Below are positions 1,708 to 34,887 of a stretch of DNA of 48,538 bases, one piece after another. The translations under genes and the position numbers were made by a program. Positions within the stretch are counted from its first letter, which is position 1. Each line of letters starts with the position of its first letter. The stretch comes from Tessaracoccus bendigoensis DSM 12906 (GTDB taxonomy: Bacteria > Actinomycetota > Actinomycetes > Propionibacteriales > Propionibacteriaceae): NCBI RefSeq assembly GCF_900141915.1, contig NZ_FQZG01000027.1, forward strand, positions 1 through 48,538. The letters run 5' to 3'. The notes under the pieces are model-generated. The model saw nothing but the letters and a program-made list of their open reading frames with translations, was not told the DNA's origin and ran no database searches.

Positions 1708-1787
1708 TTGAGCACTATTCCGGGTTCGATGGCCGAAAACCGCTGTTTTAGCGTTCAAACCGTTGTCGAACCCTGGATAGTGCTCAA
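1708..1787 (-). repeat. 80-bp inverted-end element, family A copy 1
   Basis: The left arm at 1708-1729 starts TTGAGCACTATTCCGGGTT and the right arm at 1766-1787 is its reverse complement with two mismatches. Pairing extends outward to GCG/CGC (1705 and 1790). The 36-nt middle, read on the minus strand, contains GAACGCTAAAACAGC, the core shared with copies at 22437 and 29787, so this copy is inverted relative to them. It lies between the stop of the flavoprotein gene and the start of yaaA. Confidence 0.9.
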
Positions 1788-1800
1788 CGCTTACCGACAC

Positions 1801-3507
1801 TCAGGCGTCGACCGAATTCGACGAGACCCCAGGCCTGCCGTCGTGGACGATCTTGCCCGGGTTCAGGTTGTTGCCCGGGTCGATCCCCTCGAACAGCTTG
1901 CGCTGGATGTAGACCCCGGCGGGGGAGATGTCCTCCTCCATCCAGGGGCTGTGCTCCTCGCCGACGCCGTGGTGGTGCGACACCGTCCCGTGGAAGTCCA
2001 CGAACGACTGCTGGATGACGCGCTTGGCGACATCGTAGGTGGCTTCCTGGTTGTCCGAGTCGTCGGCGATCGCGAAGGTGAAGTACTGGCAGGCCCCGGA
2101 ATGGTACGAGTGGCTCAGGTGGCAGAACACCAGCCCCCGAACCCCCAGATCGTCCATCGCCTTGGCGAACCTGTCGAGGATGAGGGTGTGGATCTCGGCT
2201 GCATAGGCCCACGGTGTCGAGGTGTCGGACACGTCGCAGATCAGGCCGCGGTCGAGCATGAAATCGCGGATGTAGGGGGTGTCGTACTTCTTCTGGTCGT
2301 AGAGGGTGCCCGGCCCCTTGCCAACCCCTAGGCCCCCGTTGTTCTTGACGACCTTCGCCACGAGCCCCTTCTCGTAGCGCACGTGGTTGGCGCTGCCCTC
2401 GAACCCGACGAAGCTCAGCGCGATCTTCTCGAGATCCCAGCCCTTCTGCAGCATCAGCTTCTGGATCGCCTTGTTCGCAAGGGAGGAAACCCGGCCCGAC
2501 TTCTTGCCGTTGGCCATGATGTATTGCGTCTCCAACGGGTCGGAGACACGCGCCATCATCACCGTCGCATCGGAAGTCACGATCTCCTCGCAGGCCTTCA
2601 GGCCCGCCTCGTAGGTCGGGAAGAAGTAGGCCTGCAGCTCACGCACCTCGGGCAGACGGTGCACGTTGACCCAGGCGGAGGTGATGATGCCCAGACGACC
2701 CTCGGAGCCCAACACCATCTCCCGGACGCTGGGGCCGGATGAGGACGACGGGAGCGGGCGGAGCGTGAGCACCTGGCCCGGCATCACCATCGTCAGGCCT
2801 CGGCAGATGTCGGCGATGTCTCCATACTTGTCTGACTGCATCCCCGAACTGCGGGTGGCGATCCAGCCACCCAGCGTCGACCAGACGAACGAATCGGGGT
2901 GGTGGCCCATCGTCCAGCCCCGGGCGTTGAGCTGATCCTCCATGTCCGGCCCGAGGACACCTGCCTCGATGTGCGCGAGCCCCGACTCTTCGTCGATCTC
3001 AAGGAGCTTGTTCAGGCGACCCATGTTCACCGAGACGACCTGACGGGTCTCACCTGGCTCGGCCTCAAGCGATGCGACGATGTTCGACCCGCCGCCGAAC
3101 GGGATCACGACGGCGTCCGCCTCGAGCGCGGCCGCTAGGAGCAACTCGACCTCCCTCTGCGTGCCGGGGTAGACGACGACGTCAGGTACGCGCCCGAGCT
3201 TGCCGTTTCGGACCCGGATCAGGTCTCGGACGCCCTTGCCGTAGGCGTGGACGACGCGCGTCTCGTCGTCGGTCTGGACGTACTTTCCTCCGACGACCGT
3301 GTTCAGCTTGCCTCGCAGTTCGTCGCTCAGCTGTGAGGCGGGGACCTCCAGAGACGAGAAGGGCCGGATCGGCTTGACGGGGAGCGTGATGTCGACGCCG
3401 ACCATCTTCTTAACGAAGGGCGCGAACTTCGGCTTGTCCTCGTGACGGTAAGCCTTGCCTTCCTCTCCCCAGCCCCACCACTTCTGCTGCTTGACGCCCT
3501 CGATCAT
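1801..3507 (-). CDS. Alkyl-DHAP-synthase-like FAD-binding oxidase
   Basis: This 568-residue protein belongs to the FAD_binding_4/VAO superfamily. The FAD site is visible as YPGTQREVELLLAAALE (113-129) followed by PFGGGSN (136-142) and HHPDSF..STLGGWIATRSSG (202-222). N-terminal KWWGWG, C-terminal HLSHSYHSGACQYF and SHHHGVGEEHSPW are signatures of alkyldihydroxyacetonephosphate synthase, where the Tyr and the His triplet line the active site. That enzyme swaps the acyl chain of acyl-DHAP for a fatty alcohol to form the ether bond of ether lipids. The gene follows an acyltransferase with a 4-base ATGA overlap and an SDR before it, which fits this pathway. A glycolate/lactate-type oxidase is the main alternative, but the HHH motif argues against it. 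Confidence 0.85.
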   Translation of the reverse strand: MIEGVKQQKWWGWGEEGKAYRHEDKPKFAPFVKKMVGVDITLPVKPIRPFSSLEVPASQLSDELRGKLNTVVGGKYVQTDDETRVVHAYGKGVRDLIRVRNGKLGRVPDVVVYPGTQREVELLLAAALEADAVVIPFGGGSNIVASLEAEPGETRQVVSVNMGRLNKLLEIDEESGLAHIEAGVLGPDMEDQLNARGWTMGHHPDSFVWSTLGGWIATRSSGMQSDKYGDIADICRGLTMVMPGQVLTLRPLPSSSSGPSVREMVLGSEGRLGIITSAWVNVHRLPEVRELQAYFFPTYEAGLKACEEIVTSDATVMMARVSDPLETQYIMANGKKSGRVSSLANKAIQKLMLQKGWDLEKIALSFVGFEGSANHVRYEKGLVAKVVKNNGGLGVGKGPGTLYDQKKYDTPYIRDFMLDRGLICDVSDTSTPWAYAAEIHTLILDRFAKAMDDLGVRGLVFCHLSHSYHSGACQYFTFAIADDSDNQEATYDVAKRVIQQSFVDFHGTVSHHHGVGEEHSPWMEEDISPAGVYIQRKLFEGIDPGNNLNPGKIVHDGRPGVSSNSVDA

Positions 3508-4307
3508 CAGTCCTCCTGTTTGTCTGCCCGCTCTTTGGCATCCTCGACCAGTGACGCGACACCGGTGCGCTCCGCCTTCTGCAACGCAGCGCTTCTTTCG
3601 TACTCTGCCAGCGTCTTCCTACCGTATGCGCGGGCCGTCGTATCGTGAAGTTCCAAAAGCTGGCGACGCATCCGCTCGTTGAACTCGTGTGCGATCTCAC
3701 CTGGATAGGGCGTCATGGGCCGTCCGAATACGACATGGACCTCGGGGCGACCCGTGGGCAGATGCTTCTGGTTCGACGGCCACGCCTCGTAGGCGCCGAC
3801 CAGGGCCACCGGCAGCGCGGGTACCCCACGGGAGACACACAGCGATGCCACACCCGGGATGAAGGGCCCCATGGCCCCGGTGCGGGAACGGGTTCCTTCC
3901 GGGAACAGAAGGATCGGCACCCCGTCGGCCAGGAGGTGCCCGGCCATGCCGCGGCGCCCCTTTCCGCCTTTGCCTCGGTCGATGGCGAACGCGTTCATGA
4001 ACAGCGACATCGAGATGGACTTGACCCAGTTGCCGAAGAAGAAGTCGCCAGCCGCGCCCGTCGCCACGAACTTGGACAATCTGGAGGGCAACGAACAAAG
4101 GATCAGAGGCGCGTCGAGGTGTGAGGAATGGTTGCCGTAGACGGCGAAGGCGCCTTCCAGGCCGTCAAGGTTCGACAAGCCATGGACATGGATCTTGAGC
4201 AGGCGGCCAAGCGCCGGCTTCAACAGCAGGAACTGCGCAGTCTGGCGTGTCGTGGCTTGGAGCTTGGACGTGTACCTGTTGTTGCCCTGCTCGATCTCGC
4301 GGCCCAC
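3507..4307 (-). CDS. PlsC-type glycerophosphate/DHAP acyltransferase
   Basis: This 266-residue protein has the two hallmark motifs of the PlsC/LPLAT family: NHSSHLD (H60-x4-D65, catalytic) and FPEGTRS (135-141, phosphate binding). A hydrophobic stretch near 160-172 suggests membrane association. It uses a GTG start one base after the SDR stop, and its own stop overlaps the start of the next gene (ATGA), so the three genes look translationally coupled. Most family members make phosphatidate from lysophosphatidate. Because of the ADHAPS-like gene next door, it may instead acylate DHAP, or the 2-position of alkyl-glycerol-3-phosphate. That assignment is inference. Confidence 0.85.
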   Translation of the reverse strand: MGREIEQGNNRYTSKLQATTRQTAQFLLLKPALGRLLKIHVHGLSNLDGLEGAFAVYGNHSSHLDAPLILCSLPSRLSKFVATGAAGDFFFGNWVKSISMSLFMNAFAIDRGKGGKGRRGMAGHLLADGVPILLFPEGTRSRTGAMGPFIPGVASLCVSRGVPALPVALVGAYEAWPSNQKHLPTGRPEVHVVFGRPMTPYPGEIAHEFNERMRRQLLELHDTTARAYGRKTLAEYERSAALQKAERTGVASLVEDAKERADKQED

Positions 4308-4308
4308 G

Positions 4309-5085
4309 TCAGGGCTTCTTCCTCGACGCGGTCAGCATGCGCGAGACGAGCCTGGTGATGCCACGGGGGCCGTGGTCGGCGACGAACATCGCGGCGCGCC
4401 ACTTCGCGTCCGGCACCGACTCGATCCGCCCCTTCTCCGCATCCTCGATGGCCCGTTTGACGAGCTTGTCTGCCTCGATCCAAACGATGCCTGGCAGCTT
4501 GCTGGCGTTGATCCCGGCCCGGCCGTGGAACTCCGTCTTCACCCATCCGGGCAGCAACCCGGTGACGGTGACGCCGGTGCCGTGCAGTTCGAGGGCCAGC
4601 GCTGTTGAGTAGGTGCGGGCCCAAGCCTTCACGGCGGAGTAGTTGCCGGTGAAGATCGACGAGGACGAAGACGAGACATTGATGATGCGACCCTGCCCCC
4701 GGCCTCGCATCGCCCGCCCGGCGGCACCGCCGAGGATGAGCATCGCGAGGCACATCACGTCGAGCGCCTTCGCGTGCAGGTCGATGTCGGCCGGGTCGAG
4801 CACGGTGCTGTGGAGGCCGAAGCCTGCGTTGTTGATCAGCCAGTCGACGGGGCGCGCCGGGTCCTCCAGGCGGGCTGCGACCCGCATGACGTCTTCTCGG
4901 ACGGACAGATCGGCAGGCAGAACCTCGACGTCGACGCCGTGGATCCCGCTCAGCTCGGTGGCTGTGGCCTCCAGCCGGGCAACGTCGCGGGCGACCAGAA
5001 TCAGGTCCGTGCCTCGTGCGGCGAACTCCTGTGCGAACGCGAGACCGATACCCGAGGTGCCACCCGTGATCAAAGCTGAAGCCAT
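4309..5085 (-). CDS. Short-chain dehydrogenase/reductase
   Basis: This 258-residue classical SDR has the NAD(P) loop GGTSGIG (8-14), NNAG (85-88), a serine run at 138-143 and the catalytic Tyr149-x3-Lys153 (NYSAVK). The C-terminal half has the PGWVKTEF segment after the active site. Arg33 following the second strand (LVARD) favours NADPH. It is the first gene of a coupled trio with an acyltransferase and an alkyl-DHAP-synthase-like enzyme, so reduction of acyl- or alkyl-DHAP is a reasonable guess, since the eukaryotic enzyme for that step (DHRS7B) is also an SDR. On sequence alone the substrate cannot be set. Confidence 0.85.
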   Translation of the reverse strand: MASALITGGTSGIGLAFAQEFAARGTDLILVARDVARLEATATELSGIHGVDVEVLPADLSVREDVMRVAARLEDPARPVDWLINNAGFGLHSTVLDPADIDLHAKALDVMCLAMLILGGAAGRAMRGRGQGRIINVSSSSSSIFTGNYSAVKAWARTYSTALALELHGTGVTVTGLLPGWVKTEFHGRAGINASKLPGIVWIEADKLVKRAIEDAEKGRIESVPDAKWRAAMFVADHGPRGITRLVSRMLTASRKKP

Positions 5086-5205
5086 GGTCTATAAGGTACG
5101 CCAACCAGGGGAGCCCGGACCACGCGGCGTCGACCAACTTCGGGTGGTTGGTTGAGTTTGAACAGAGAACCGGTGTGGTGTTTGGTGGACGGCGACAAAG
5201 TCAGG

Positions 5206-5958
5206 TCACCAGCCCGCTGCTGACAGCTGTGGCGCAGGGGGCCAGTTTGTCTCGTCGATGCCGCTGGCTGCCCTCTTGATAGCGTCAGCCTGCGCTCTGA
5301 TCTCTCCCGTCACGTCCGGGAGGGTGAAGAACGTGGCCAAGGCGAATATGAAACTGGCAATTGCGATGATCAGGCCGATTACTGCCCCGATACCGGTCCA
5401 GCCCGTAGCGATGGCGACCACGAGGCCGGCCAAGGCAAGAATCAGGCCCCCGGTGGCCATCAGGCCTCCGACGATGTGACTCTGAAGGGTTGAATCGCAG
5501 CGTCGCTCAGCAGCGATCAGGGAGGCCAGACCCGTCTGGAGTTCTCGGACCTTGCCTTCCAGAGGTTGGATCTTCGCCTCATAGAGTTGCTGGTTTGACG
5601 AGACCCAGTCGCCGCGGCTGCCCATCATTGCCGCAACGTCCAGGTCTCCAAGCAAGCCGGAGAAGTCGATCTCCTCGAAGGCGTCGGCTGCCTCACGTAG
5701 GGACTTGACCGTGACCACCATGCCGCATTCCTCTTCGCAGGCGGACACGAACTGATCCGCCTGGGCCTGCAGTTCGTCGAGCTTCGCGTAGGCCTCCAGC
5801 CGTTTCCCCTCCACGTATCCCTGGTCCCAGAAGATTGCGATCTTGGCTGCGGCTGCGGCGCCGTCGATCATTCCAGGGACGCGTGGAAGCTCCTGCCTGA
5901 GACCATCGATCACTTTGTTCAGTTCGGATACGTAGGTGTCCTCGTTGCTCACAGCCAT
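5206..5958 (-). CDS. Helical protein with a central hydrophobic hairpin; possible type VII-associated protein
   Basis: I do not recognise a named family. The protein has 250 residues. Residues 1-160 are charged, mostly helical and probably coiled coil (a Leu/Ala/Glu heptad-like pattern around 55-100 and 125-150). Residues 162-185 and 188-212 are two adjacent hydrophobic stretches split by a short GWTG turn. Residues 215-235 form another amphipathic helix. A long helical bundle with an internal hydrophobic hairpin resembles ClyA/Hbl-type alpha pore formers and some type VII (WXG/LXG) secreted proteins; this is shape resemblance only. It is last in an operon, 7 bases after the WXG-like gene 5966-6304. 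There is no signal peptide. Confidence 0.65.
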   Translation of the reverse strand: MAVSNEDTYVSELNKVIDGLRQELPRVPGMIDGAAAAAKIAIFWDQGYVEGKRLEAYAKLDELQAQADQFVSACEEECGMVVTVKSLREAADAFEEIDFSGLLGDLDVAAMMGSRGDWVSSNQQLYEAKIQPLEGKVRELQTGLASLIAAERRCDSTLQSHIVGGLMATGGLILALAGLVVAIATGWTGIGAVIGLIIAIASFIFALATFFTLPDVTGEIRAQADAIKRAASGIDETNWPPAPQLSAAGW

Positions 5959-5965
5959 TCTCCTA

Positions 5966-6304
5966 TCACAGATCCAGTTCCTCGATCAGAGCTTCGATCT
6001 CGCGTGCGAGACCCTCGTTTTCTGCTTCTCGGCGCAGGTATTCGCGCCCTGTCAGGACGATGCCTTCGCGGAGGGAATCCATCAACTGCACCCCTGCGTC
6101 TGCGCCGTTGGTACCCGAGGTGAGGCTTGTGACCATCGCCGTGTAGGCGGGTTTGAACGGGGCAAAACGATAGCTCTCATCCCAGGTGTAGTTCACCGCG
6201 GTGATGTCCTTGCTGATGCAGTCAAGCTGCTTGGCTACCGACTCGAGCCGGGTCTCTTGCTGCTTGAACCATTCGCAGCGGAACTTCAACATGTCGTAGT
6301 TCAT
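5966..6304 (-). CDS. Small helical WXG100-like protein
   Basis: This encodes 112 residues, predicted to be almost all helix. Two helical segments (about 1-38 and 56-112) are joined by a region with NYTWDESYRF (39-48). Size, helical hairpin shape and a Trp at the turn fit ESX/WXG100-type secreted proteins, although the strict WxG is replaced by WDE. The C-terminal half is acidic (EIEALIEELDL). It begins 4 bases inside the end of the upstream gene (ATGA overlap at 6301-6304) and is followed at once by the hairpin protein, so the three are co-translated. The family assignment is tentative. Confidence 0.65.
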   Translation of the reverse strand: MNYDMLKFRCEWFKQQETRLESVAKQLDCISKDITAVNYTWDESYRFAPFKPAYTAMVTSLTSGTNGADAGVQLMDSLREGIVLTGREYLRREAENEGLAREIEALIEELDL

Positions 6305-6867
6305 TGCATCTCCCGGTACTGATTGACTTCTGCTTTGAGTTCCTCATGCTCGCGGCGTAGCGCCGCGAGGCGGGCCGATAGGCTGTCGGTGGGGCTCTCC
6401 TCGAGGAATGCGTTCAGCGCGACGAGGAGGTCGTCTTCAATGCGTACCGGGTCGGATGAGAGCCACCGCGGGTCCACGTCGATTGCCACAATCTGGCCAT
6501 CCCTGACATCGACGACGACATGGCGATCCAAGTCGTGGAACTGAGTGAGCTCGGGCTCCTCCTGCGGTGGACCTCCGAGAAGCCGGGAAACGTCGGCGAG
6601 CAGCTTCCATGCCTCCGCGTTGAAGGCGATGGCGGTCGCTGCGAGGTTGGCTACCTCCGAGCCTGGGATTGACAGGTTCCCAGGCGTAACCTTTGGGGCG
6701 CTCGCGGTGATGAGAGAGTTCTGGTACTGCTCGAGGAACGCCACCATCGCGGCCATTCCGAAGTGCTCGGCGGAAACCGATTCGGACCAGCCATCGGTGA
6801 TCCTGACGGATTCGATGAGTGCTCCGGAGAAGGAATACTTGACGACGCTGTCGATCTGCTCTGGCAC
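6301..6867 (-). CDS. YbaB/EbfC-like domain protein, first gene of the type VII-like trio
   Basis: This encodes 188 residues. Residues around 108-150 (HVVVDVRDGQIVAIDVDP, then a WL..DPVRIEDDLL helix) follow the YbaB-type strand-strand-helix pattern seen in actinobacterial proteins coded beside WXG100 genes. The last 30 residues are a charged coiled coil. The N-terminal 100 residues (KYSFSGALIESVRITDGW...) may be a second, degenerate copy of the same fold. It heads the operon 6867-5206. In other actinobacteria such proteins accompany ESX substrates as likely partners or chaperones; that role is inferred here. No ESX secretion core genes are in the window. Confidence 0.65.
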   Translation of the reverse strand: MPEQIDSVVKYSFSGALIESVRITDGWSESVSAEHFGMAAMVAFLEQYQNSLITASAPKVTPGNLSIPGSEVANLAATAIAFNAEAWKLLADVSRLLGGPPQEEPELTQFHDLDRHVVVDVRDGQIVAIDVDPRWLSSDPVRIEDDLLVALNAFLEESPTDSLSARLAALRREHEELKAEVNQYREMQ

Positions 6868-6897
6868 CTCCGCAGGCTAACAGCCTGAAGGGTCACT

Positions 6898-7311
6898 GTG
6901 ACACAATGGCTTGTGCTTGAGCCTCGTCGTGAACCATGGGTCTGGCGTACCGCCATGGCCCTCTGTCTGGTGGGGGCAGCACTGCTGGTGGTGCTGGCGG
7001 TGGTGGTGCCCGCCGACCTGGGGGCGATAGTCAGACCGCTGATCGGCGTGTGTGCCGTGTTGCTGGTCACGGTCACCGGGTTCGTCCTGGCAGGGCTGCG
7101 GGGTCAGGAGTCCCCTCGGGCGGCGCCTCGTTGGGCTTCGCTCATCTGTGGGGCGCTCGCTGGTGGCGCCGTGGTTGCGCTCCTTCCGGCCATCGGAGAT
7201 TTTGCGCATCCCTTGGGCCCAACCGCGTCGGCGCTCGTCCAACTGGTTTTCGGGATCTTCGGGCTAGGGATCGTGGCCGTCGGGATTTGGGGATTCGTGC
7301 GACGCCGCTGA
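6898..7311 (+). CDS. Four-helix integral membrane protein, unknown function
   Basis: This encodes 137 residues with four hydrophobic segments at about 17-38, 44-66, 79-99 and 110-133, ending in a positive FVRRR tail (cytoplasmic by the positive-inside rule). The start is GTG at 6898, 30 bases from the divergent start of the YbaB-like gene, so promoters must overlap. I see no catalytic motif and recognise no family. The membrane pattern is regular, and a hairpin terminator directly follows the stop, both supporting a real gene. Confidence 0.6.
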   Translation: MTQWLVLEPRREPWVWRTAMALCLVGAALLVVLAVVVPADLGAIVRPLIGVCAVLLVTVTGFVLAGLRGQESPRAAPRWASLICGALAGGAVVALLPAIGDFAHPLGPTASALVQLVFGIFGLGIVAVGIWGFVRRR

Positions 7312-7337
7312 CCGGCGCGGCTCAACCGTCGCGCCGG
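7312..7337. terminator. Bidirectional hairpin between convergent genes
   Basis: Perfect 8-bp arms CCGGCGCG (7312-7319) and CGCGCCGG (7330-7337) enclose a 10-base loop GCTCAACCGT. It starts right after the stop of 6898-7311 and lies 22 bases beyond the 3' end of ackA, so it can serve both strands. Confidence 0.6.
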
Positions 7338-7358
7338 ACGCGCAGGCGCCCCTCCCGT

Positions 7359-8558
7359 CTAGCCCAGGCCGTTGATGATGGCCAGCGTTTCTTGCGCCAT
7401 CTCCAGTTCCTCATTCGTCGGGATCACCAGCACGCGCACCTTCGACTCGGGTGTCGAGATCTCGCGGGCCTCCTTCGACCTCACCAGGTTGGCGGCCTCG
7501 TCCAACTCGAAGCCGAGTCCTGCCAGCCGCCGGATGACCGGGCCCCGCACATGCGCGGCGTTCTCGCCGACACCCGCGGTGAACACCAAGGCGTCCACGC
7601 CGCCCAGGATGGCGATGTAGGAGCCGATGTAGCCGACCAGACGGTGCACGTAGACGTCCAACGCCAGTTGGGCCTGCTCGTTGCCGGCCTCGATCTGGGT
7701 CTTGATGTCGCGCATGTCGGTGTAGCCGCACAGCCCGCCCATGCCGGAGCGCCGGTTGAGCAACTCGTCGACGTCGTCGATCGACATGCCCGCGGAGCGG
7801 CTCAGGTACTTCGGGAGACCCGGATCCACGTCGCCGGAGCGGGTGCCCATGACCAGACCCTGCAACGGGGTCAGGCCCATGGATGTCTCGACGGCGACAC
7901 CGCCGTCGACAGCGGAGATCGACGCGCCGTTGCCGAGGTGGCACACGATGGTTTTCAGCTCCCCGAGGGGACGGCCGAGGTATTCGGCGGTCTTCTTCGA
8001 CACGTAGTGGTGGGAGGTGCCATGGAAGCCGTACTTGCGGATACCGTGCGTGGCCGCTACCTCAGCGTCGATCGCGTAGGTGTAGGCCTCGGCAGGGAGG
8101 GTCGCGAAGAAGGCGGTGTCGAAGACTGCGACATGCGGCACGTTGGGTAGCACCGCCTTCGCCGCCCGGATACCGGCGATGCCGGGGGGATTGTGCAGCG
8201 GTGCGAGGTCGGAAAGCTCGTCCAGCTTGGCCACCACCGAGTCATCGATCAGCGTCGATTCGACGAAGGTCGAGCCGCCGTGGACGGTGCGGTGCCCCAC
8301 GGCGACGACGTTTTCGAGAGTCGGGCCGTGCTCGGCGAACATCCGCACGACCGCCCCCACCGCCTCGGTATGGTCGGCGAAACGGACGTCCTCGTGGTAC
8401 TCGGCGTCGCCGACCTCATGATCGATGGTCGACATTTCCTGCCCGATGCGCTGCACAATTCCCACCGCCTGCGGGCCGGATTGGGCGGGGTCAAGCAGCT
8501 GGTACTTGATCGACGACGATCCACAGTTGAGGAGGAGGATCGGCTGCGACATGGGCAT
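7359..8558 (-). CDS. ackA: Acetate kinase
   Basis: This 399-residue protein has the usual acetate kinase length. It makes ATP from acetyl-phosphate and ADP, giving acetate in fermentation. Signature segments are present: LLNCGSSSIKYQL near the N-terminus, GHRTVHGG, HNPPGIAGI, VFDTAFFATLP, YGFHGTSHHYVS, HLGNGASISAVDGG and MGTRSGDVDPG, covering the acetate pocket and the nucleotide-binding core. It starts 16 bases after the end of pta on the same strand, forming the standard pta-ackA operon, and ends at a shared hairpin terminator. Confidence 0.97.
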   Translation of the reverse strand: MPMSQPILLLNCGSSSIKYQLLDPAQSGPQAVGIVQRIGQEMSTIDHEVGDAEYHEDVRFADHTEAVGAVVRMFAEHGPTLENVVAVGHRTVHGGSTFVESTLIDDSVVAKLDELSDLAPLHNPPGIAGIRAAKAVLPNVPHVAVFDTAFFATLPAEAYTYAIDAEVAATHGIRKYGFHGTSHHYVSKKTAEYLGRPLGELKTIVCHLGNGASISAVDGGVAVETSMGLTPLQGLVMGTRSGDVDPGLPKYLSRSAGMSIDDVDELLNRRSGMGGLCGYTDMRDIKTQIEAGNEQAQLALDVYVHRLVGYIGSYIAILGGVDALVFTAGVGENAAHVRGPVIRRLAGLGFELDEAANLVRSKEAREISTPESKVRVLVIPTNEELEMAQETLAIINGLG

Positions 8559-8574
8559 TCCTATTCGATTGGGT

Positions 8575-12207: not shown

Positions 12208-12809
12208 GAGTCATCAACCTCCAATTCGGGGGGTTCGGCATCGACGGGGTGCATTCCGCGGGATCGCGCCTCCCGGTATTCGGCGATCTCCTGTTTCGAT
12301 CCGAAGGCTGCCAGGACGCGGCCTTCCACATCGTGCGTCATGTCCTGGATCCGTTGCACCGGGTCAGGCCCGATCAGGTCGACCGCGTGCAGGTAGAGAC
12401 GCCTCGGGTGCTTGACGACCTCGACGACGACCGTTCCGGGTACCAGCGAGATCAGCTCGGCGACCTGCACCTGGTAAAAATCGTTGTCACTATCGAGGTC
12501 GACCCTGATGATGCCCGCGTTCAGGTCCACCGGCCGCGCGAACGCCAACGACACCATCCGTACGGATGACACCACCAGGTCGTGCAGCAGATGCCACAGG
12601 AGCAGCGCGCAGCCGATCGGGTGGAACCGCCCCTCCCAGTTGATCGGGGGAAGAGGGAAGACCAGGCCGATGAGATAGGCCAGCAGAATCCCCGACGCGA
12701 TGATCATCGGTGAGATGCCGCCCCACAGGATCACCCATATGGCGGTCATGCCCAGCACCGAGAGCGGGCGGAACCGGTACCGGATCGCCGAACGTGAAGC
12801 GTGCCTCAT
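12204..12809 (-). CDS. mrpE: Na+/H+ antiporter subunit E
   Basis: This encodes 201 residues from the ATG at 12809, which overlaps the mrpD stop by 4 bases. The open frame continues upstream but only as an out-of-frame reading of mrpD. The MrpE family pattern is clear: two N-terminal hydrophobic helices (RPLSVLGMTAIWVILWGG and MIIASGILLAYLIGLVFPLP), a third near LLLWHLLHDLVVSSVRM, then a soluble domain with ISLVPGTVVVEV. The C-terminal 40 residues are an acidic extension. Confidence 0.9.
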   Translation of the reverse strand: MRHASRSAIRYRFRPLSVLGMTAIWVILWGGISPMIIASGILLAYLIGLVFPLPPINWEGRFHPIGCALLLWHLLHDLVVSSVRMVSLAFARPVDLNAGIIRVDLDSDNDFYQVQVAELISLVPGTVVVEVVKHPRRLYLHAVDLIGPDPVQRIQDMTHDVEGRVLAAFGSKQEIAEYREARSRGMHPVDAEPPELEVDDS

Positions 12810-22436: not shown

Positions 22437-22516
22437 TTGAGCACTATCCGGGGTTCGACGCGGATATGAACGATAAAACAGCTCCATTTGGGCATCGAAC
22501 CCGGAATAGTGCTCAA
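22437..22516 (+). repeat. 80-bp inverted-end element, family A copy 2
   Basis: The left arm 22437-22458 begins TTGAGCACTATCCGGGG and the right arm 22495-22516 ends ATAGTGCTCAA; two mismatches occur between arms. The middle is 36 nt and contains TGAACGATAAAACAGC, the family core. It lies in the 340-base region (22272-22611) between the divergent ABC-F and acyl-CoA ligase genes, so it may sit in or beside their promoters. I see nothing else recognisable in that stretch. Confidence 0.9.
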
Positions 22517-27053: not shown

Positions 27054-27066
27054 TCCACCCGCTTAT

Positions 27067-27857: not shown

Positions 27858-27875
27858 TCTGAGAAACCACTCGAA

Positions 27876-27903
27876 CAGGGTCCCGGCTCCGGCCGGGACC
27901 CTG
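27876..27903 (+). terminator. Terminator of the rpsF-ssb-rpsR-rplI operon
   Basis: Perfect 12-bp arms CAGGGTCCCGGC (27876-27887) and GCCGGGACCCTG (27892-27903) close a TCCG tetraloop 18 bases after the rplI stop. The sequence after it is only moderately T-rich (CTTCTGTT). Confidence 0.85.
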
Positions 27904-27992
27904 CTTCTGTTCCGGGGGCTGGCGGCCCGCCCGTCGCAGACAATGACCCTGTCCCGACCCTGGTGCTCCACCTACCGGGCACACTGGGACAC

Positions 27993-29000
27993 ATGACTTC
28001 CGAGACCACCAGACGCCGGACCCTCCTCAAGGGAATCTCTAGCCGGGCGTGGGAGCACCCCGCCGACCGCGGCGCGCTCGTCGCGCTCCGCAAGTTGCAG
28101 GGGTTCGACACGATTCTGCGGAAGTTCTCCGCGTTCATGAGCGAGCGGGCGATCAGGATGCACCTGCTCGGCTCGGCAGTGCGCGTCAGCGAGCGGCAGT
28201 TCCCACGGATGAACCAGTTGTATGCCGAGGCGGCAACCGTGCTGGACGTGCAGGAACTGCCGGAACTGTACGTCGTGGCTTCACCGGTCTTCAACGCGAT
28301 GACCATCGGTATCGACAAGCCGAAGATCGTCGTCAACTCGGCCCTCGTCGACCTGCTCGATGACGACGAGTTGCGTTTCGTGCTGGGGCACGAGCTGGGT
28401 CATGCCCTCAGCGGGCATGCGTTGTACCGCACGCTCTTGCAGTACATTCTGACGTTCGGGATGACGCTGGCCAGCGTCCCGTTCGGCGGCATCGGCCTGA
28501 TCGCGCTGCGCTCCGCGTTGAGCGAATGGTCCCGAAAGTCAGAGCTGTCGTCCGACCGCGCGGGCCTCCTGGCGACCCAGGACGTGCAGGCCGCGATCAG
28601 GGTGAACATGAAGCTTGCATCCGGTGGCCACCTCGCCGATCTCGACCAGACGGAGTTCCTATCGCAGGCCCACGACTACCAGGACACCGAGGATCTGCGG
28701 GACTCCATCGCGAAGTTGATCCTTGTCGACGCGTCGACGCATCCGATGAACGTGGTGCGGGCCAGTGAGATCCGCAAGTGGGTCGACTCGGGCGCCTACG
28801 CCAGAATCCTGAGTGGGGAGTACCCCAGGCGTGACGGCGACAGGGACGCCAAGATCTCAGAGGAGGCGAGCGCGGCGGCAGACGCCTATGCGACCGAGTT
28901 CAAGGAGAGCGAGGATGCGCTCGCCAAGCTGGCCCGAGACCTCGGCGACGGCATCAGCGACCTCGGGAAGTGGGTCTCAGCCAAGGTCCGCGGCGACTGA
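27993..29000 (+). CDS. M48 family zinc metalloprotease
   Basis: This encodes 335 residues from ATG 27993; an in-frame ATG 30 bases earlier adds an unlikely leader. The zinc motif HELGH is at residues 133-137, and the third ligand Glu lies in SELSSDRAG. A hydrophobic segment follows the zinc site (QYILTFGMTLASVPFGGIGLIALR), so it is probably membrane associated like HtpX/Ste24-type enzymes, though only one hydrophobic region is evident. The C-terminal 70 residues are charged and alanine-rich. Its role in membrane protein quality control is inferred from the family. Confidence 0.85.
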   Translation: MTSETTRRRTLLKGISSRAWEHPADRGALVALRKLQGFDTILRKFSAFMSERAIRMHLLGSAVRVSERQFPRMNQLYAEAATVLDVQELPELYVVASPVFNAMTIGIDKPKIVVNSALVDLLDDDELRFVLGHELGHALSGHALYRTLLQYILTFGMTLASVPFGGIGLIALRSALSEWSRKSELSSDRAGLLATQDVQAAIRVNMKLASGGHLADLDQTEFLSQAHDYQDTEDLRDSIAKLILVDASTHPMNVVRASEIRKWVDSGAYARILSGEYPRRDGDRDAKISEEASAAADAYATEFKESEDALAKLARDLGDGISDLGKWVSAKVRGD

Positions 29001-29036
29001 CGGTTTGCCGGTCGGCTCGCCGGGTAGTGTCGAGAC

Positions 29037-29678
29037 ATGACTGGAATCCTGATTTTCGGTGGCCACGGGAAGGTGGCGCTCCTGGCGGAGCCCATGCTTG
29101 TCGATGCGGGCAACAACGTTGAGGCGGTGGTGCGTAATCCCGATCACGTCGCTGAGGTTGAGGCGACCGGGGCGCGGGCCGTCGTGGCGAACCTCGAAGT
29201 GATGGGTCAGGAGGAGGTCGATCAGTTGGTCGAGGGCCATGAAGTGGTCATCTGGTCGGCCGGTGCGGGCGGGGGTGCCGCGTCCCGGACCAAGGCCGTC
29301 GATGAAGAGGCCGCGCTGCGTGTGCTCGGCGCCGTCGGGAAGGCGGGGGCCAGGTTCATCATGGTCTCCTACTTCGGCGCATCGCTCGACCACGGGGTGC
29401 CGGAGGAAGACCCGTTCTTCGCCTATGCGGAAGCCAAGGCGCACGTCGACGACGCGATCAGACGAAGTGACACCAACTGGGTGATCCTCGCTCCCTCGGC
29501 GCTGACCCTCGAACCGGAAAGTGGTGTGGAGATCGGCGCCGATGTGTCGAGGGAGGTCTCCCGTGCGACGGTCGCCCGAGTGATCGCTGAGGTGGTTGCG
29601 CGGCCGGGCCTGTCTGGGGTGACGATCAGCTTCAACGAGGGCTCGACGGCGCCTGGTGTGGCGCTCGACGGCATCTAG
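29037..29678 (+). CDS. NAD(P)-binding Rossmann protein (atypical SDR, YwnB/Hscarg-like)
   Basis: This 213-residue protein starts with a strand-loop ILIFGGHGKVA, an NAD(P)-binding glycine motif. It then follows the atypical short SDR plan, with VVRNPDHVAEVEATGARAVVANLE and VIWSAGAGGG. The usual Tyr-x3-Lys dyad is replaced by a YAEAKAHVDD segment, which keeps Tyr and Lys spaced by three residues. Members are NmrA-like sensors or reductases. It is a single gene with no evident operon partner. Confidence 0.8.
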   Translation: MTGILIFGGHGKVALLAEPMLVDAGNNVEAVVRNPDHVAEVEATGARAVVANLEVMGQEEVDQLVEGHEVVIWSAGAGGGAASRTKAVDEEAALRVLGAVGKAGARFIMVSYFGASLDHGVPEEDPFFAYAEAKAHVDDAIRRSDTNWVILAPSALTLEPESGVEIGADVSREVSRATVARVIAEVVARPGLSGVTISFNEGSTAPGVALDGI

Positions 29679-29786
29679 GCGCCTTCGGGTGGCTGGTACC
29701 AAACCATCCAACGGCTGAGGTCCACCGGATCGGTCGATCACGCGCCCCATTCTGGGCATCCACAGGTGCTGTGGTCGCGTCTGGCC

Positions 29787-29866
29787 TTGAGCACTATTCC
29801 GGGTTCGATCCTAATTGGAACGTGAAAACAGGTCGTTTCCGCGAACGAGTCCGGGATAGTGCTCAA
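29787..29866 (+). repeat. 80-bp inverted-end element, family A copy 3
   Basis: The left arm 29787-29808 begins TTGAGCACTATTCCGGGTT. The right arm 29845-29866 ends GATAGTGCTCAA and pairs with four mismatches. The 36-nt middle has GGAACGTGAAAACAGG and GTCGTTTC, aligned in register with copies 2 and 4. It lies between the convergent genes 29037-29678 and 30148-30540. Confidence 0.9.
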
Positions 29867-29944
29867 CGTCCCAAGACTCCCACCGAGCGGTGCGGGTCGG
29901 GCAGCGAGGTCGACGGCGCCGTCGACGCGGTGTGGTCAGGGGGC

Positions 29945-30122
29945 GGCGTCACCAGCGTTGTGCGCTGGTTACCAGCGGTATTCCTGCTTACCTGCGGTCT
30001 TCCTCTGGTGACGGAGTATTGCGCTGGTGTCGCGGATATTTCGCTGGTGACGGGGCGTTGCGTTGGTCTCGGCGGCGTTGCGGTGGTGACGGGGGCGTTG
30101 CGGTGGTGACGCGCGCCTTTCG
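29945..30122. repeat. Degenerate 19-21 bp tandem repeat array, nine units
   Basis: Units begin near 29945, 29965, 29984, 30003, 30024, 30044, 30063, 30083 and 30103. The later ones fit CTGGTGACGGGGCGTTGCG, for example GTGGTGACGGGGGCGTTGCG at 30083-30102. A partial tenth unit starts at 30123. The period is not a multiple of three in a stable way, so it is non-coding. Together with family A copy 3 it fills most of the 469-base gap 29679-30147; I see no gene there. Confidence 0.7.
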
Positions 30123-30147
30123 CCGGCGACGGGGACCTGGCCCCCAG

Positions 30148-30540
30148 CTACCTCGCGTCGAGCCGGGCGATCAGCCTGACGCCTGCCGTCTGCCGATAGG
30201 ACAACTCGACCAGTTCGGCGACCTCGCCCCAGTCGGTATCCCCGTCGATGTGGAGGCTGATCCAGCCATAGGGTCCGATATAGCCCGGGATGTGGACGCG
30301 GGGGTCCTCAAGCAGCGCGAGGCGTTCATCTTCCGGGAGCAGCACGCTCACCGTCCGCGGGTTTGGCACCCAGCGTCCATCGACCTTGTTGCTCATCCCG
30401 AAGTATGCGAACACCTTGCGCGTGTAGAACGCAGGGTGCCCGACGACGAGTTTCTCGGCCGCGCCCGGCAAGTCGAGGCAGATGCTGCGCAAGCGGACCA
30501 GATCGGGGTCCAGAGGGTCGAAACGGGACGGTTCGCTCAT
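30148..30540 (-). CDS. MmcQ/YjbR family protein
   Basis: This encodes 130 residues from ATG 30540 (MSEPSRF), preferred over an ATG 27 bases upstream. The family shows as LRSICLDLPGAAEKLVVGHPAFYTRKVFAYFG at the N-terminus and GYIGPYGWISLHIDGDTDWGEVAELVELSYR at the C-terminus. These small proteins fold like a CyaY/TBP-type surface and are often called DNA-binding on structural grounds. No firm function is known. Confidence 0.85.
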   Translation of the reverse strand: MSEPSRFDPLDPDLVRLRSICLDLPGAAEKLVVGHPAFYTRKVFAYFGMSNKVDGRWVPNPRTVSVLLPEDERLALLEDPRVHIPGYIGPYGWISLHIDGDTDWGEVAELVELSYRQTAGVRLIARLDAR

Positions 30541-30587
30541 GGGGCATCCTTTCACGATCGGCGCCACCCGATCGCTACCCTGAGGGG

Positions 30588-31433
30588 ATGCGCAACTTCA
30601 CCGTCGACCTCAACCCGCACCGCAGCGTCACCCTCGAGGCCACCGTCTTCGATCGGCCGCTCGACTCAGAGCAGCCCACCCCGCTCGAACACCCCAGGCC
30701 AGCCGTGATCATCTGCCCCGGCGGCGGGTATGAGTTCCTCTCACAGCGGGAGTCGGACCCCGTCGTTGCGAGCTTCCTGGCGGCCGGTTTCAACACGTAT
30801 CTGTTGCGCTACTCGATCGGTGAGCATGCCCTCGGCCCGAACCCGGCGGTCGACGCGGCGCGGGCAGTGCGGTGGGTCCGGGCACACGCTGACGAGCATG
30901 GGGTCGACCCGACCCGGGTGGCGCTGCTCGGCTTCTCGGCAGGCGGGCACGTCGCGGGCATGCTCGGTACCCACTGGGACGACGCGGACCTCGTGGCCGC
31001 AGAGCGGGCCGAGTACGAGGCGCTCGTCGCGGAGGGGGTCGCAGCCAACTCAGGCCTGCTCGACTTCGACTCCCGACCCGACGCCATCGTCGCCTGCTAC
31101 GCGGTGTTCAGCATGGACTGGGTGGACCGTCGCAGCAGGCCCGGGCTCACCTTCGGCGACTGCATCGAAGCGGTCTCCCAGGCGACCCCGCCGACCTTCC
31201 TATGGACGACCAACGAGGACGCGACCGTCCCGCCGACCCAGTCACTCCGATTTGCCACCGCGCTCGCCAGGGAAGGCGTCGAGTTCGAGTACCACCACTT
31301 CGATCGCGGCGCCCACGGGCTGTCGACGGCGACGCCGCTGGCCAACGCCGACCGGGCTGCGCTCCCGGAAAACGCACACGCCTGGCTCGCCTTGTGTCTC
31401 GCCTGGCTCCGGGCGACCTGGGTGTCGAGGTGA
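30588..31433 (+). CDS. Alpha/beta hydrolase (BD-FAE/carbohydrate-esterase-like)
   Basis: This 281-residue protein has the oxyanion loop CPGGGYEF (43-50) and the nucleophile elbow GFSAGGH with Ser117. A candidate Asp lies in TTNEDATVP and the His in DRGAHGLS near the end. The order and spacing match esterases related to acetyl-xylan esterase/BD-FAE. There is no signal peptide, so it acts in the cytoplasm. ATG 30588 follows GAGGGG. The stop overlaps the start of the next small gene (GTGA). Confidence 0.85.
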   Translation: MRNFTVDLNPHRSVTLEATVFDRPLDSEQPTPLEHPRPAVIICPGGGYEFLSQRESDPVVASFLAAGFNTYLLRYSIGEHALGPNPAVDAARAVRWVRAHADEHGVDPTRVALLGFSAGGHVAGMLGTHWDDADLVAAERAEYEALVAEGVAANSGLLDFDSRPDAIVACYAVFSMDWVDRRSRPGLTFGDCIEAVSQATPPTFLWTTNEDATVPPTQSLRFATALAREGVEFEYHHFDRGAHGLSTATPLANADRAALPENAHAWLALCLAWLRATWVSR

Positions 31434-31612
31434 GCGCCCGCTTCCTGACGTCCTGGCCGTGCCAGGACGCCTGCGGGACCATCACCACGGACGAACGCGT
31501 GGAGGGTGCGCCGGTCTACCGTTGCCCCGGTTGCGACACCTCATGGATCGAACTCGACGAACGAACGGCGTCGTCAGCACTCGATGAAGGCGACGGCGAG
31601 CCCGCCGGTTGA
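31430..31612 (+). CDS. Small zinc-ribbon-like protein
   Basis: This encodes 60 residues from GTG 31430, overlapping the esterase stop. The sequence has CQDAC near residue 11 and CPGC near 32, two cysteine pairs about 20 apart, as in a small zinc ribbon, followed by DTSWIELDE and an acidic tail. Its last 39 bases overlap the 3' end of serine dehydratase on the other strand, which is unusual but allowed for convergent genes. The family is unknown; a chance frame is possible, but the cysteine spacing argues for a real protein. Confidence 0.45.
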   Translation: MSARFLTSWPCQDACGTITTDERVEGAPVYRCPGCDTSWIELDERTASSALDEGDGEPAG

Positions 31613-32947
31613 CGTCTCCTTGTACTTGCTCAGCATGTCGCGGCCCGTGTCGCGCATCGTCCTGATCGCCTGGTCGAGAGTGACGCGGTGCGTGCCATCG
31701 CCGCAGAGCGCCAACTGGGCCGCGTTGATCGCTTTGACGGCTGCCATCGCGTTGCGCTCGATGCACGGCACCTGCACGAGGCCGCCGATGGGGTCGCAGG
31801 TTAGGCCGAGGTTGTGTTCGAGGCCGATCTCGGCGGCGTTCTCCACCTGACCGGGGGTGCCGCCCAACACCTGCGCCAGTCCGGCCGCCGCCATCGCGCA
31901 AGCCGAGCCGACCTCGCCCTGGCAGCCGACCTCGGCCCCGGAGATCGAGGCGTTCTGCTTCAGCAGCACGCCGACGGCGGTGGCGGCGAGCAGGAAGTCC
32001 ACGACATCGTCGTCGCCCGGGTCCTCGGCGAAGTCCATGTAGTAGTGCAGGACGGCCGGTATCACCCCGGCGGCACCGTTGGTCGGGGCCGTGACGACCC
32101 GGCCGCCTCCTGCGTTCTCCTCGTTGACCGCAAGCGCGTACAGGTTGACCCATTCCATCGCCGAGAACGTGATCGTGATCAGGTTTGGATGGGTATCTGT
32201 GGTCAGTTGCCGGTGTAGGGCAGGTGCGCGACGGGGCACGTGAAGCACCCCGGGCAGGTAGCCCTCCTGCCGGATGCCGCGGTCGACGCAGGCCTCCATC
32301 ACCTGCCAGATCTCGATGAGCGCGGAGCGGGTCGCCTGGGCGGGGCGCCAGGCCAACTCGTTGGCGGCGACCACCTGGGCGATGCTCAGGCCTTCCCGTG
32401 CGGCGATCTCGAGCAACTCGTGTGCCGTGTCGAAAGGATGACGCACAGCCACCTCGCGGACCCCGGTCGATCCGGCCTCGGCCTGTGTCTCGTCCACGAC
32501 GAAGCCGCCCCCGATCGAGTAGTACCGGTTTGTGGCGACCACGGCGCCGTCGGCGTCCAGTGCCGTCAGGTCGAGGGCGTTGGGATGCCGGGGAAGAGGG
32601 GTGCGGTGGAAACGAAGATCTGTCGCCCAGTCGAACGGGATCGGACGGCGACCGTCGAGCACGATCCGACCCTCGCGGCCCACCGCGTCGACGGCGGCCG
32701 CGTACTCGTCTGGGTCGACCGACTCGGGACGGTGCCCCATCAGGCCGCCGACGACCGCCTTGTCCGTGCCGTGCCCGATCCCGGTCGCGGCGAGGGACCC
32801 GTACAGGTCGATCTGGAGGCGCACGACATCGTCGATCCGGTCCTCCAGCGCCGCTGCGAAGAGCGCTCCGGCACGCATCGGGCCCATCGTGTGGGACGAG
32901 GATGGGCCGATGCCGATCTTGAACAGGTCCAAGGCGCTGATGGACAT
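31574..32947 (-). CDS. sdaA: L-serine ammonia-lyase, iron-sulphur dependent
   Basis: This 457-residue protein is the single-chain form with the beta domain at about 1-160 ([24 protein letters not shown]) and the alpha domain after it. Cluster and active-site cysteines lie in [16 protein letters not shown] and [18 protein letters not shown]. It turns serine into pyruvate and ammonia with a 4Fe-4S cluster acting as Lewis acid. A GGGAGGTGAC ribosome site precedes the ATG. It lies 28 bases after the MFS gene on the same strand and may be read with marR-MFS. Confidence 0.95.
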
Positions 32948-32975
32948 GTCACCTCCCGTGAGTTCCCAATCGAAT

Positions 32976-34259
32976 CTAGCGCCCTTCGGACGACATCGCA
33001 GGCACCGAGCGGGGTTGTTGTGTCCACACCTTGATCCGCATCGGATTGCGGGCCAGGCGGAACCGGACCCCGTCGTGCAGGAAGAGGTAGGCGACCACTC
33101 CGACTGCGCACAGCCCCGGGACGATGGCCGCGACCAGCACCGAGGCCCTTGGCCCGAGAACCTGCCCGATCCAACCGATCAGCGGCGACCCGATGGGGGT
33201 GCCCCCCATGAAGATCGCCATGTAGACGGCCATCACCCGGCCACGGAACTCGGGCGCTGTGCCGAGTTGCACCGAGGCGTTTGCCGTTGTCATAGCCGTC
33301 AGCGAGAAGAAGCCGGCCGGGATGAGCAGGATGGCGTAGACGGTGTAGGTCGGAGCCAACGCCAGCAGGAAGGTGCTGACGGCGAATCCTCCCATGGAAA
33401 GGATCAGCATTCGCAGGGTCGGCTTGGTGCGCCGGGCGGCCATCAGGGCCCCGCCGAGTGTGCCCACCGCCATGATGGTGCCAAGCAGCCCGAACTCGGC
33501 CGACCCGACCCCGAAGGTCACCGTCGACATGGTGGCGTTGAAGATCTGGAAGTTCATGCCGAACGTGCCGAGCGTGAACACCATCACGAGCACGACGATC
33601 AGGTCCGGTCGCCCGCGCAGGTAGCGAAGCCCATCGAGTGCACCGGCCCGGGTCTTCGACACGGCGGGGTGCAACTCGTCGGCGTGCATGGCCAGGATGG
33701 CGAGGATCATCGCGATGAAGCTGAGCGCGTTGATCAGCAGCGTCGGGCCGACACCGACGGCGGCAACGAGGATGCCTGCCAGGCCGGGTCCGATCAGCCG
33801 TGCACCGTTGAAGGACGTGGAGTTCAACCCGACGGCGTTTGTCAGGTACTGCGTCGGGACGATCTCGGAAACGAAGGCCTGACGTGCGGGGTTGTCGAAG
33901 GCCGTGATCGCACCCATCAGCAGAGCGAAGAGATACACGTGCCATAACTGCACCAGGTCCGTGGCGACCAGGGCCCAGAGCCCGAGCGCGGTGAGGCCGA
34001 GCCCGACCTGTGTGACCAGGAGGACCTTGCGTTTCGGGTAGCGGTCGATGATCGCTCCCGCGTAGGGCGCCAGCAGCGGCACGGCGATGAACTGCAGCGC
34101 CGTCACGATGCCGAGCGCGGTGCTGGAGTTGTCGGTGAGTTCGGTGAGGACGAGCCAGTCCTGGCCGATACGCTGGATCCAGGTGCCGAGGTTGCTTACC
34201 AGGGCGCCGAGGAAGAAGTAGCGGTAGTTGCGAAACGCCAGAGACGCGAAGGTTTTCAA
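32976..34259 (-). CDS. MFS transporter (DHA3/EntS-like exporter)
   Basis: This encodes 427 residues from a TTG at 34259, which overlaps the MarR stop as TTGA and has GGAGGT upstream. Starting here gives the family opening KTFASLAFRNYRYFFLGALVSNLGTWIQ. Twelve hydrophobic helices are visible. Conserved loops include the GAIIDRYPKRKVLL type after helix 2, PTQYLTNAVGLNSTSFNGARLIGPGLAG, and TTANASVQLGTAPEFRGRVMAVY. The family exports siderophores or drugs. Coupling to a MarR regulator points to efflux of the regulator's ligand. Confidence 0.88.
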   Translation of the reverse strand: MKTFASLAFRNYRYFFLGALVSNLGTWIQRIGQDWLVLTELTDNSSTALGIVTALQFIAVPLLAPYAGAIIDRYPKRKVLLVTQVGLGLTALGLWALVATDLVQLWHVYLFALLMGAITAFDNPARQAFVSEIVPTQYLTNAVGLNSTSFNGARLIGPGLAGILVAAVGVGPTLLINALSFIAMILAILAMHADELHPAVSKTRAGALDGLRYLRGRPDLIVVLVMVFTLGTFGMNFQIFNATMSTVTFGVGSAEFGLLGTIMAVGTLGGALMAARRTKPTLRMLILSMGGFAVSTFLLALAPTYTVYAILLIPAGFFSLTAMTTANASVQLGTAPEFRGRVMAVYMAIFMGGTPIGSPLIGWIGQVLGPRASVLVAAIVPGLCAVGVVAYLFLHDGVRFRLARNPMRIKVWTQQPRSVPAMSSEGR

Positions 34260-34702
34260 GCCTCGGATACCTCCAGAAGTAGGTCGGCGGCCTGCCGCAG
34301 CAGCGCAAGTTGGTCCGGGGCCATGCCGTCGAGGTGCTCGAGCATCCAGGTGTCGCGATGCGCGATGGTCTCGCGCACGACTGCTGCGCCCCTCTCGGTG
34401 TTGCTCACGAGCACCTGGCGTCCGTCGTCGGGATGGGGGGACCGCTTCACGAGCCCTTCCTCGGCGAGGCAGTTGACGGTGCGCGTCATCGAAGGCGCGC
34501 TGACGCGGTCGTGGGCGGCGAGCTGGGTCGGGGTCTGCGGGCCGAGTCGGTTCAGGCGAACGAGGACGGAGAACTGGTGTGGTGCGACGGCGCTGGTCGA
34601 CTCGAATCGGACGCGGCGCGCGATGCGTTGGCAGGCGAGCCGGAGGTCGTTGGCGAGGGTGAACATGGGGCCGTCCTCGACGTGGGCGGATTCGATCAAC
34701 AT
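34256..34702 (-). CDS. MarR family transcriptional regulator
   Basis: This 148-residue winged-helix protein has PHQFSVLVRLNRLGPQTPTQLAAHDRVSAPSMTRTVNCLAEEGLV as the helix-turn-helix and RSPHPDDGRQVLVSNTERG as the wing with its conserved DDGR. AGGAGG (34710-34715 on the opposite strand) gives an ideal ribosome site 7 bases before the ATG. It is co-translated with the MFS gene and probably represses itself and the transporter through the dyad at 34724-34744. Confidence 0.93.
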   Translation of the reverse strand: MLIESAHVEDGPMFTLANDLRLACQRIARRVRFESTSAVAPHQFSVLVRLNRLGPQTPTQLAAHDRVSAPSMTRTVNCLAEEGLVKRSPHPDDGRQVLVSNTERGAAVVRETIAHRDTWMLEHLDGMAPDQLALLRQAADLLLEVSEA

Positions 34703-34723
34703 GAGATGGCCTCCTAAGCAACG

Positions 34724-34744
34724 CTAATTACTCTAACTCATTAG
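34724..34744 (-). promoter_or_regulatory. Candidate MarR operator and promoter
   Basis: CTAATTACTCTAACTCATTAG is a 21-bp dyad with 7 of 10 pairs matching and perfect 5-bp ends (CTAAT/ATTAG), in an A/T-rich island within very GC-rich DNA. Read on the minus strand, TTACCC and TAATTA spaced 17 bp could be -35 and -10 boxes overlapping it. Its position directly upstream of marR fits autorepression. Confidence 0.5.
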
Positions 34745-34807
34745 ATAGGGTAAGGAAAATGTGAGCCGCGAGGTGACGTTGGCGTGGGGCTGTGGCTGGG
34801 GGTGCCG

Positions 34808-34887
34808 TTGAGCACTATCCCGGACTCGATCGGCGACACGCCGTAGTTGGGCGTCGTTTCGGCAAGGGAACCCGGAATAGTGCTCAA
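34808..34887 (+). repeat. 80-bp inverted-end element, family A copy 4
   Basis: The left arm 34808-34829 begins TTGAGCACTATCCCGGACT and the right arm 34866-34887 ends GGAATAGTGCTCAA. The 36-nt middle is the most divergent, but GTCGTTTC falls at the same offset as in copy 3. It lies between the 3' end of the SDR 34942-35622 and the marR promoter. Confidence 0.88.

Follow-up and report, generated by a model that had tools for sequence, protein, structure and literature searches.

A Tessaracoccus family of 80-bp intergenic inverted repeats with constrained arms and length: a possible composite protein-binding site

Results

Four element copies on one contig

The window analysed here is a stretch of 48,538 nucleotides from Tessaracoccus bendigoensis DSM 12906 (contig NZ_FQZG01000027.1, positions 1 to 48,538), which contains four dispersed copies of a short intergenic element consisting of two inverted arms around a middle. 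All four lie where a preliminary description of the sequence had placed them, and each is exactly 80 bp long. Copies 1 (1708..1787; 88.1 bits) and 4 (34808..34887; 77.1 bits) are oriented and scored on the minus strand, and copies 2 (22437..22516; 85.7 bits) and 3 (29787..29866; 86.3 bits) on the plus strand. The 22-bp arms read on the plus strand occupy 1708..1729, 22437..22458, 29787..29808 and 34808..34829, with partners at 1766-1787 (minus strand), 22495-22516 (minus strand), 29845-29866 and 34866-34887, respectively. A 16-base arm motif (at most three mismatches) has 8 matches in the window, compared with a mean of 0.64 in shuffled sequence, and none of 100 shuffles reaches 8. No Rfam covariance model matches the window above its gathering score.

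The middles of copies 1, 2 and 3 belong to one type, here termed type A, and that of copy 4 to another, type B. The GAACG-T-AAAACAG core that had been reported in register in three copies, one of them reversed, is present in the type A copies 1 (reversed), 2 and 3. The inner dyad region of these copies, columns 29-42 of alignment A1, corresponds to 1746..1759 on the minus strand in copy 1 (TTTGAACGCTAAAA on that strand), and to 22465..22478 and 29815..29828 on the plus strand in copies 2 and 3. In copy 4 the inner inverted repeat, of type B, by reading spans 34835..34855 (GACACGCC ... GGCGTC). The stretch GTCGTTTC, which copies 3 and 4 had been noted to share, is probably a coincidence, as it matches a type A middle to a type B middle read on the reverse strand. 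Around copy 1, weakly conserved outer flanks lie at 1688..1707 and 1788-1807, like the 20-bp zones around the other copies. The copies had also been assigned to four different gene-strand contexts; a simple gene caller instead gives three of them co-directional neighbouring genes and the fourth divergent ones.

Copy number, anatomy and gene context

In the 4.13 Mb draft genome (158 contigs), the arm pattern with at most three mismatches has 82 forward and 83 reverse matches, and its reversed control 0 and 0. Paired copies, defined by the presence of both arms (at most six mismatches each) in the loci retrieved and excluding lone, truncated and tandem half copies, number 79, of which 72 are 80 bp, 3 are 79 bp and 4 are 90 bp long. 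Elements also occur in tandem clusters, and clustered copies are non-independent. Two further observations concern this genome: a minor family that combines TGAGCAGGATCC arms with a 90-bp type core (L001, L005:1869 and L094:26), and tandem half elements beside full copies, with periods of ~47 and ~30 bp (L108:1396-1500 and L101:6832-6890).

When oriented, the middles sort into types A and B throughout the genome. The type A dyad (TTTGAACGTTCAAA kind, columns 29-42) lies 13 bases from one arm and 23 from the other, and the type B middle has the form GACGCC ... GGCGTGTC. In three of the four 90-bp copies the inner palindrome is, by reading, central (23 + 23), so that the dyad-arm spacings of the 80-bp and 90-bp forms differ by one helical turn. 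The information content of the 79 copies shows weak conservation for ~20 bp beyond both ends, a refinement of the preliminary description. The outer motif of a relative, G028, is similar, and outer conservation in another, G033, fades after ~6 bp.

The 79 copies lie in co-directional (30), convergent (21) and divergent (11) gene gaps, at edges (12) and within a predicted open reading frame (5), these last probably reflecting over-extended gene calls. Among 26 oriented copies in co-directional gaps, 14 point in the same direction as transcription and 12 in the opposite one, a lack of bias that speaks against a strand-specific RNA, terminator or promoter element as a general role.

Constraint on arms and length between sister species

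Evidence for selection comes from G020 and G033, which are near-identical sister species on the tree described below. All 22 placeable elements chosen in G020 sit at orthologous G033 sites, and 12 of these were found independently in G033. Twelve further elements were chosen in G033. Six of them have a counterpart in G020, three of these being known G020 elements outside the 22; one is missing there, one is truncated, one corresponds to an already-paired locus (a possible duplication) and three were unplaced in the stretches retrieved. The 28 shared elements therefore comprise 12 known in both genomes, 10 chosen in G020 and 6 chosen in G033.

Across these 28 elements, substitutions number 32/1232 in the arms, 83/984 in the middle and 257/3194 in the 60-bp flanks; the arms differ from the flanks (P = 1e-12) and the middle does not (P = 0.69). 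Indel columns number 1 in the arms, 14 in the middle and 190 in the flanks (middle versus flank, P = 1e-9, a value that is too small because indel columns are not independent events). The arms and the length are thus constrained and the middle sequence is not. The earlier argument that strict length with loose sequence betokens selection is borne out by a middle that evolves at the flank substitution rate with about fourfold fewer indel columns. Divided by origin, arm and flank substitutions are 6/528 (1.1%) and 110/1411 (7.8%) for elements found in both species, 12/440 (2.7%) and 87/1185 (7.3%; P = 3e-4) for those chosen in G020, and 14/264 (5.3%) and 60/598 (10.0%) for those chosen in G033. 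Even where the middle has been rewritten, the G020 counterparts in this last set retain a length of 79 or 80 bp.

A side observation in G033 is that its 31 elements cluster at the contig start, which by reading encodes a DnaA-like protein. Origin clustering as a general trait was rejected: it is strong in G033 (R 0.57, reached by 0/20000 random sets; 0.00075 when clusters are collapsed), less pronounced in G020, which has largely the same sites, and not seen in the partial G028 list.

Lineage-specific and unlike arms

Among type A copies, identity over arm columns 7-18 is 82% in this genome and 58% in G028, and 37% when the two genomes are compared; identity of the middles outside the core is 48%, 48% and 41%, respectively. 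The arms therefore follow the lineage and the middles hardly do so: the copies are old, and their arms are lineage-wide. Some arms are, by reading, near-palindromic (TTGAGC-N10-GCTCAA in G036 and ATGAGC-N10-GCTCAT in G020), and among own copies the left and right arms differ slightly.

In G033 the two arms of one element are mostly of different kinds, X (ATCCTCCT type and variants) and Y (GACACACT type): 25 of 31 pattern-matched elements are X-Y, 6 are Y-Y and none is X-X. Both kinds are kept in G020. Folded as DNA, two X-Y elements of G020 do no better than shuffles (z -1.4 and -1.0). Folding is far stronger in the four window copies (z -3.8 to -6.8), as it is in a copy from G105, a genome of another genus (z -11.7), and one Y-Y copy. 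The doublet hairpin was strong in 6 of the 8 copies folded and not in the two X-Y copies.

Arm covariation between families is strong (166 compensated cells; score 0.503, compared with at most 0.122 in slid controls). Within this genome, arm pairing is not above any of 500 shuffles; in 72 own copies, columns 12, 14 and 22 pair less often than in shuffles and columns 11, 13, 17 and 18 show no difference.

Distribution among relatives

Relatives of the element occur in 13/96 genomes under model R1 and, under the broader model R2, in 16/39 genomes of the genus, this genome being included in both counts. A pattern that specifies no arm sequence is found in 24/197 genomes of the family Propionibacteriaceae, and its reversed control in 1/197. 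These 24 comprise 15/38 of the genus, G105 with 9 copies, and eight genomes with single matches, which may be due to chance. In the 15 of 38 Tessaracoccus genomes the 79/80-bp plan is kept and the arm sequences differ, with up to about a hundred copies per genome. The search among relatives that had been suggested for the window copies thus recovers further copies whose length does not vary freely.

On a midpoint-rooted tree of two proteins from 29 genomes, on which the bearers G036 and G038 are not placed, the 13 remaining bearers make up a single group, with a split support of 0.996. The pattern occurs in 0/16 others, one of which (G001) has four R2 matches with other ends. The family is therefore probably ancestral to this group, all 13 sampled members of which carry it.

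Among the matches listed, the arm-agnostic pattern also appears on scattered single genome and viral contigs, and those outside the genus may be chance matches. Plasmid and phage sequences gave no match to copy 3. Our literature search found no work linking Tessaracoccus to intergenic palindromic repeats or to repetitive and transposable elements, and the RepRanger main text, in the parts consulted, names neither Tessaracoccus nor RAYT (PMC12306157).

Site sharing and mobility

Comparison of the own elements with 53 G028 loci gave 26 flank matches, with an element within 300 bp in 17, within 1000 bp in 3 and within 2500 bp in 3. The corresponding fractions within 300 bp are 4/7 for G020 and 4/10 for G022. 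In all, 14 of the 79 own elements, window copies 1 and 2 included, occupy a site that also holds an element in one of the sampled relatives. By reading, orientation agrees in 7 of 8 scorable type A pairs; seven pairs whose middles are of other types, and a site at which two copies lie inverted, are not part of this tally.

A single site occupied across the genus was considered in the gap 3' of pth and rejected, since that gap is filled in just 4/30 genomes. Within the group, by reading, unoccupied pth gaps range from gene overlap to ~104 bp and occupied ones reach ~120-140 bp. In G016, which lacks the pattern, a 78-bp palindrome of another kind, with long arms (GGATGTGAGTGGCCACTCACTAGCAGGTTTTGG...), lies ~203 bp past the pth stop (L440).

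One clean absence between the sister species was found. At G033:1956021, a 132-bp segment comprising a 79-bp element with 26 and 27 bp is missing from G020, with borders CCTGTAG/CCTGTGG. An insertion that duplicated 7 bp imperfectly (6 of 7) and a deletion between short repeats would explain it equally; in either case gain or loss occurs. The check for target duplications that had been proposed together with that for empty sites revealed no consistent duplication: no offset from 0 to 39 is enriched above noise in 72 copies, and direct repeats of at least 7 bp in the flanks show no enrichment (observed and shuffled, 0.10 and 0.14 in the own genome, 0.19 and 0.14 in G028, and, in G033, 0.29 and 0.18 with a standard deviation of 0.07).

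Mobilization by a Y1/RAYT transposase was rejected as a candidate explanation, PF01797 (E <= 0.001) being found in 0/38 genomes and detected in 5/14 controls. No parent transposon with the same ends was seen in the own loci retrieved, among the arm matches listed for the 158-contig draft. Lone arms are few in the loci retrieved and, bar isolated cases, lie in tandem fragments or at contig ends. At two loci of G018 (L061 ~1469-1612 and L121 ~12264-12404), an element is embedded centrally in a longer palindrome (TTGAGCCGGACACGGCTCTCG...), and the two inner elements differ. A gene travelling with the elements was likewise considered and discarded: when 853 proteins predicted around the elements were clustered, the groups mainly reflected shared sites, and the most widespread group was a large ATPase-like one.

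Other repeats in the window

The window contains other repeats. A second dispersed family, GAAAATCGACCASTGGTCGATTCT..., of ~52 bp, has three copies (38921-38974, 48343-48396 and 48437-48488) with 80-90% identity. A 203-bp direct duplication (35986-36188 and 36219-36421) has 97% identity with starts 233 bp apart, and 48124-48273 is a tandem array of 15-bp units, GGTCGTGTCAGGGCG. Soon after copy 3, a 20-bp tandem repeat, GGGGCGTTGCGGTGGTGACG, occupies 30013-30131; a sequence resembling it also follows an element on contig C157.

Discussion

A composite site for a putative protein

The reading that we favour, with a probability of about 0.47, is that the element is a REPIN/BIME-like composite site in duplex DNA read by a putative protein. 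Each site would consist of two inverted 22-bp arms, whose outer end (TTGAGC type) is constant and whose inner stretch is specific to the lineage, flanking a 36-bp spacer that carries a central dyad of GATGTGAACGTTCACATC or GGCGTGTCGC type. A putative protein or protein pair would bind both arms, and probably also the dyad, at a fixed helical phase; the spacings of the dyad centre to the arms, 13/23 in the 80-bp form and 23/23 in the 90-bp form, would then be equivalent save for one turn, and such phasing could be the cause of the fixed length. The family would already have been present in the ancestor of one Tessaracoccus group, would have multiplied in intergenic DNA as REPINs do, and would nowadays be mostly kept in place. 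Its arm sequence would shift together with that of the binding factor, a change in step that would leave one or two arm types per genome and differing middles. The sites might serve chromosome organization or be domesticated mobile sites.

Of the three possibilities raised in the preliminary description, the best fit is a protein-binding site; the evidence disfavours a structured RNA, and a mobile element is a possible origin. The earlier interpretation as a whole is partly supported. A more far-reaching form of the binding-site reading appears doubtful to us, namely that a dedicated DNA-binding system of one bacterial group marks up to ~100 intergenic places, that the sequence it recognizes changes across the whole genome from one species to another, in some cases to heteromeric sites with two kinds of arm, without loss of the old copies, and that a chromosomal protein and its entire set of sites have coevolved in concert.

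Several results weigh against a composite binding site. The arm constraint, though real, weakens as the choice of elements becomes less biased. Gene conversion could be an alternative keeper of alike arms. Of the G033 elements compared between the sister species, G020 lacks one and has another in truncated form. Arm identity within G028 is just 58%, owing to two arm families. In most lineages the arms are complementary, the copies tested fold strongly and arms covary between families, all of which resembles a hairpin. The pattern is missing from over half of the genus, which implies that the site is dispensable. Flank matches in G018 (0/1), G019 (0/5) and G030 (0/4) revealed no shared site. 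The genomes with an occupied pth gap are scattered on the tree, at differing distances from the stop codon, and for this reason some shared sites probably arose by separate insertions into one gap, not by common descent. The 90-bp class may stem from a single event. Finally, no candidate gene for the binding protein emerged from the element contexts.

Alternative explanations

A REPIN-like or MITE-like (miniature inverted-repeat transposable element) non-autonomous mobile element, whose arms are transposon ends that track a putative transposase and whose copies are mostly old, is a distinct possibility, although we would sooner doubt than accept it. The dispersal of intergenic copies in both orientations and their tandem clusters would follow naturally, as would the nesting at the two G018 loci and the 132-bp segment present in one sister species, and the slight difference between left and right arms recalls that between the two ends of a transposon. 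Such an element would be expected to leave target duplications, none of which is enriched, and to depend on a transposase, that of the Y1 type being found in none of the 38 genomes; lone arms are few and the draft loci retrieved hold no visible parent. The presence of all 22 placeable G020-chosen elements in G033 also counts against it, and the combination of divergent middles with uniform arms is ill-suited to a recent burst.

If the element instead acted as a structured RNA or single-stranded DNA hairpin, with the arms as its stem and its fold maintaining the length, the far better than shuffled folding of the window and G105 copies and the strong covariation between families would be accounted for. 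We regard this as improbable. Unlike arms in 25 of the 31 G033 elements, together with the shuffle-like folds, disfavour a general hairpin or RNA role, for the X-Y elements keep their arms nonetheless; arm changes within this genome are uncompensated, and neither a bias of orientation relative to transcription nor an Rfam match in the window points to an RNA. Least credible of all, and in our view very improbable, is that the copies are functionless intergenic relics of an old repeat burst whose arms are kept uniform by gene conversion between copies. Relics would agree with a middle that evolves at the flank rate, with a gene-orientation preference that is not strong, and with the single gain or loss and the single truncated copy that distinguish the sister species. 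The few indels in arms and middle speak against them, as do the two different arms maintained within one element, and conversion restricted to the 22-bp ends and sparing the middle is hard to picture.

Significance and comparison with known repeat systems

RAYT transposases and hairpins account for the known REP-type repeats. The genomes studied here yielded no Y1 transposase, and hairpin formation is not a general property of the elements. Since arms and length are nonetheless under measurable constraint between sister species, the family offers a testable set of chromosomal sites that differ in step by lineage, and the 80-bp duplex is a clear bait for finding the putative factor.

Accounts of REPINs describe an inverted pair of short units around a spacer, present in many intergenic copies, with arms alike within a genome and long persistence (PMC3116915 and PMC8049555, in the parts consulted). 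The Tessaracoccus elements share these traits, and some of their arms, such as those of G036 and G020 given above, are near-palindromes in their own right. They differ in that no RAYT (Y1) gene was found in any of the 38 genomes, in the lack, by reading, of GTAG at the ends of the 25 copies aligned in A1, in a spacer of nearly invariant length with a conserved off-centre dyad, and in the many unlike-arm elements of one lineage, two of which formed no hairpin when folded. CGTC-tagged REPs are, in the sections consulted, palindromic repeats seemingly without a dedicated transposase (PMC3733652). These carry a CGTC end tag, whereas the 80-bp composites have no such tag at the ends seen in A1. Like MITEs, the Tessaracoccus elements are short, intergenic and multi-copy with terminal inverted repeats, but they have no enriched target duplication, no parent element in view and a nearly fixed length. 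ERIC sequences are also short, intergenic and multi-copy with inverted ends, a likeness by description alone.

In the BIME-1/RIP elements of Escherichia coli, inverted REPs flank a central IHF site at a set spacing. The Tessaracoccus element may be analogous in its inverted units around a central putative protein site at a set spacing; it belongs to another phylum and has other sequences, no RAYT was found with it in the 38 genomes, and likening its dyad to an IHF site is an analogy only.

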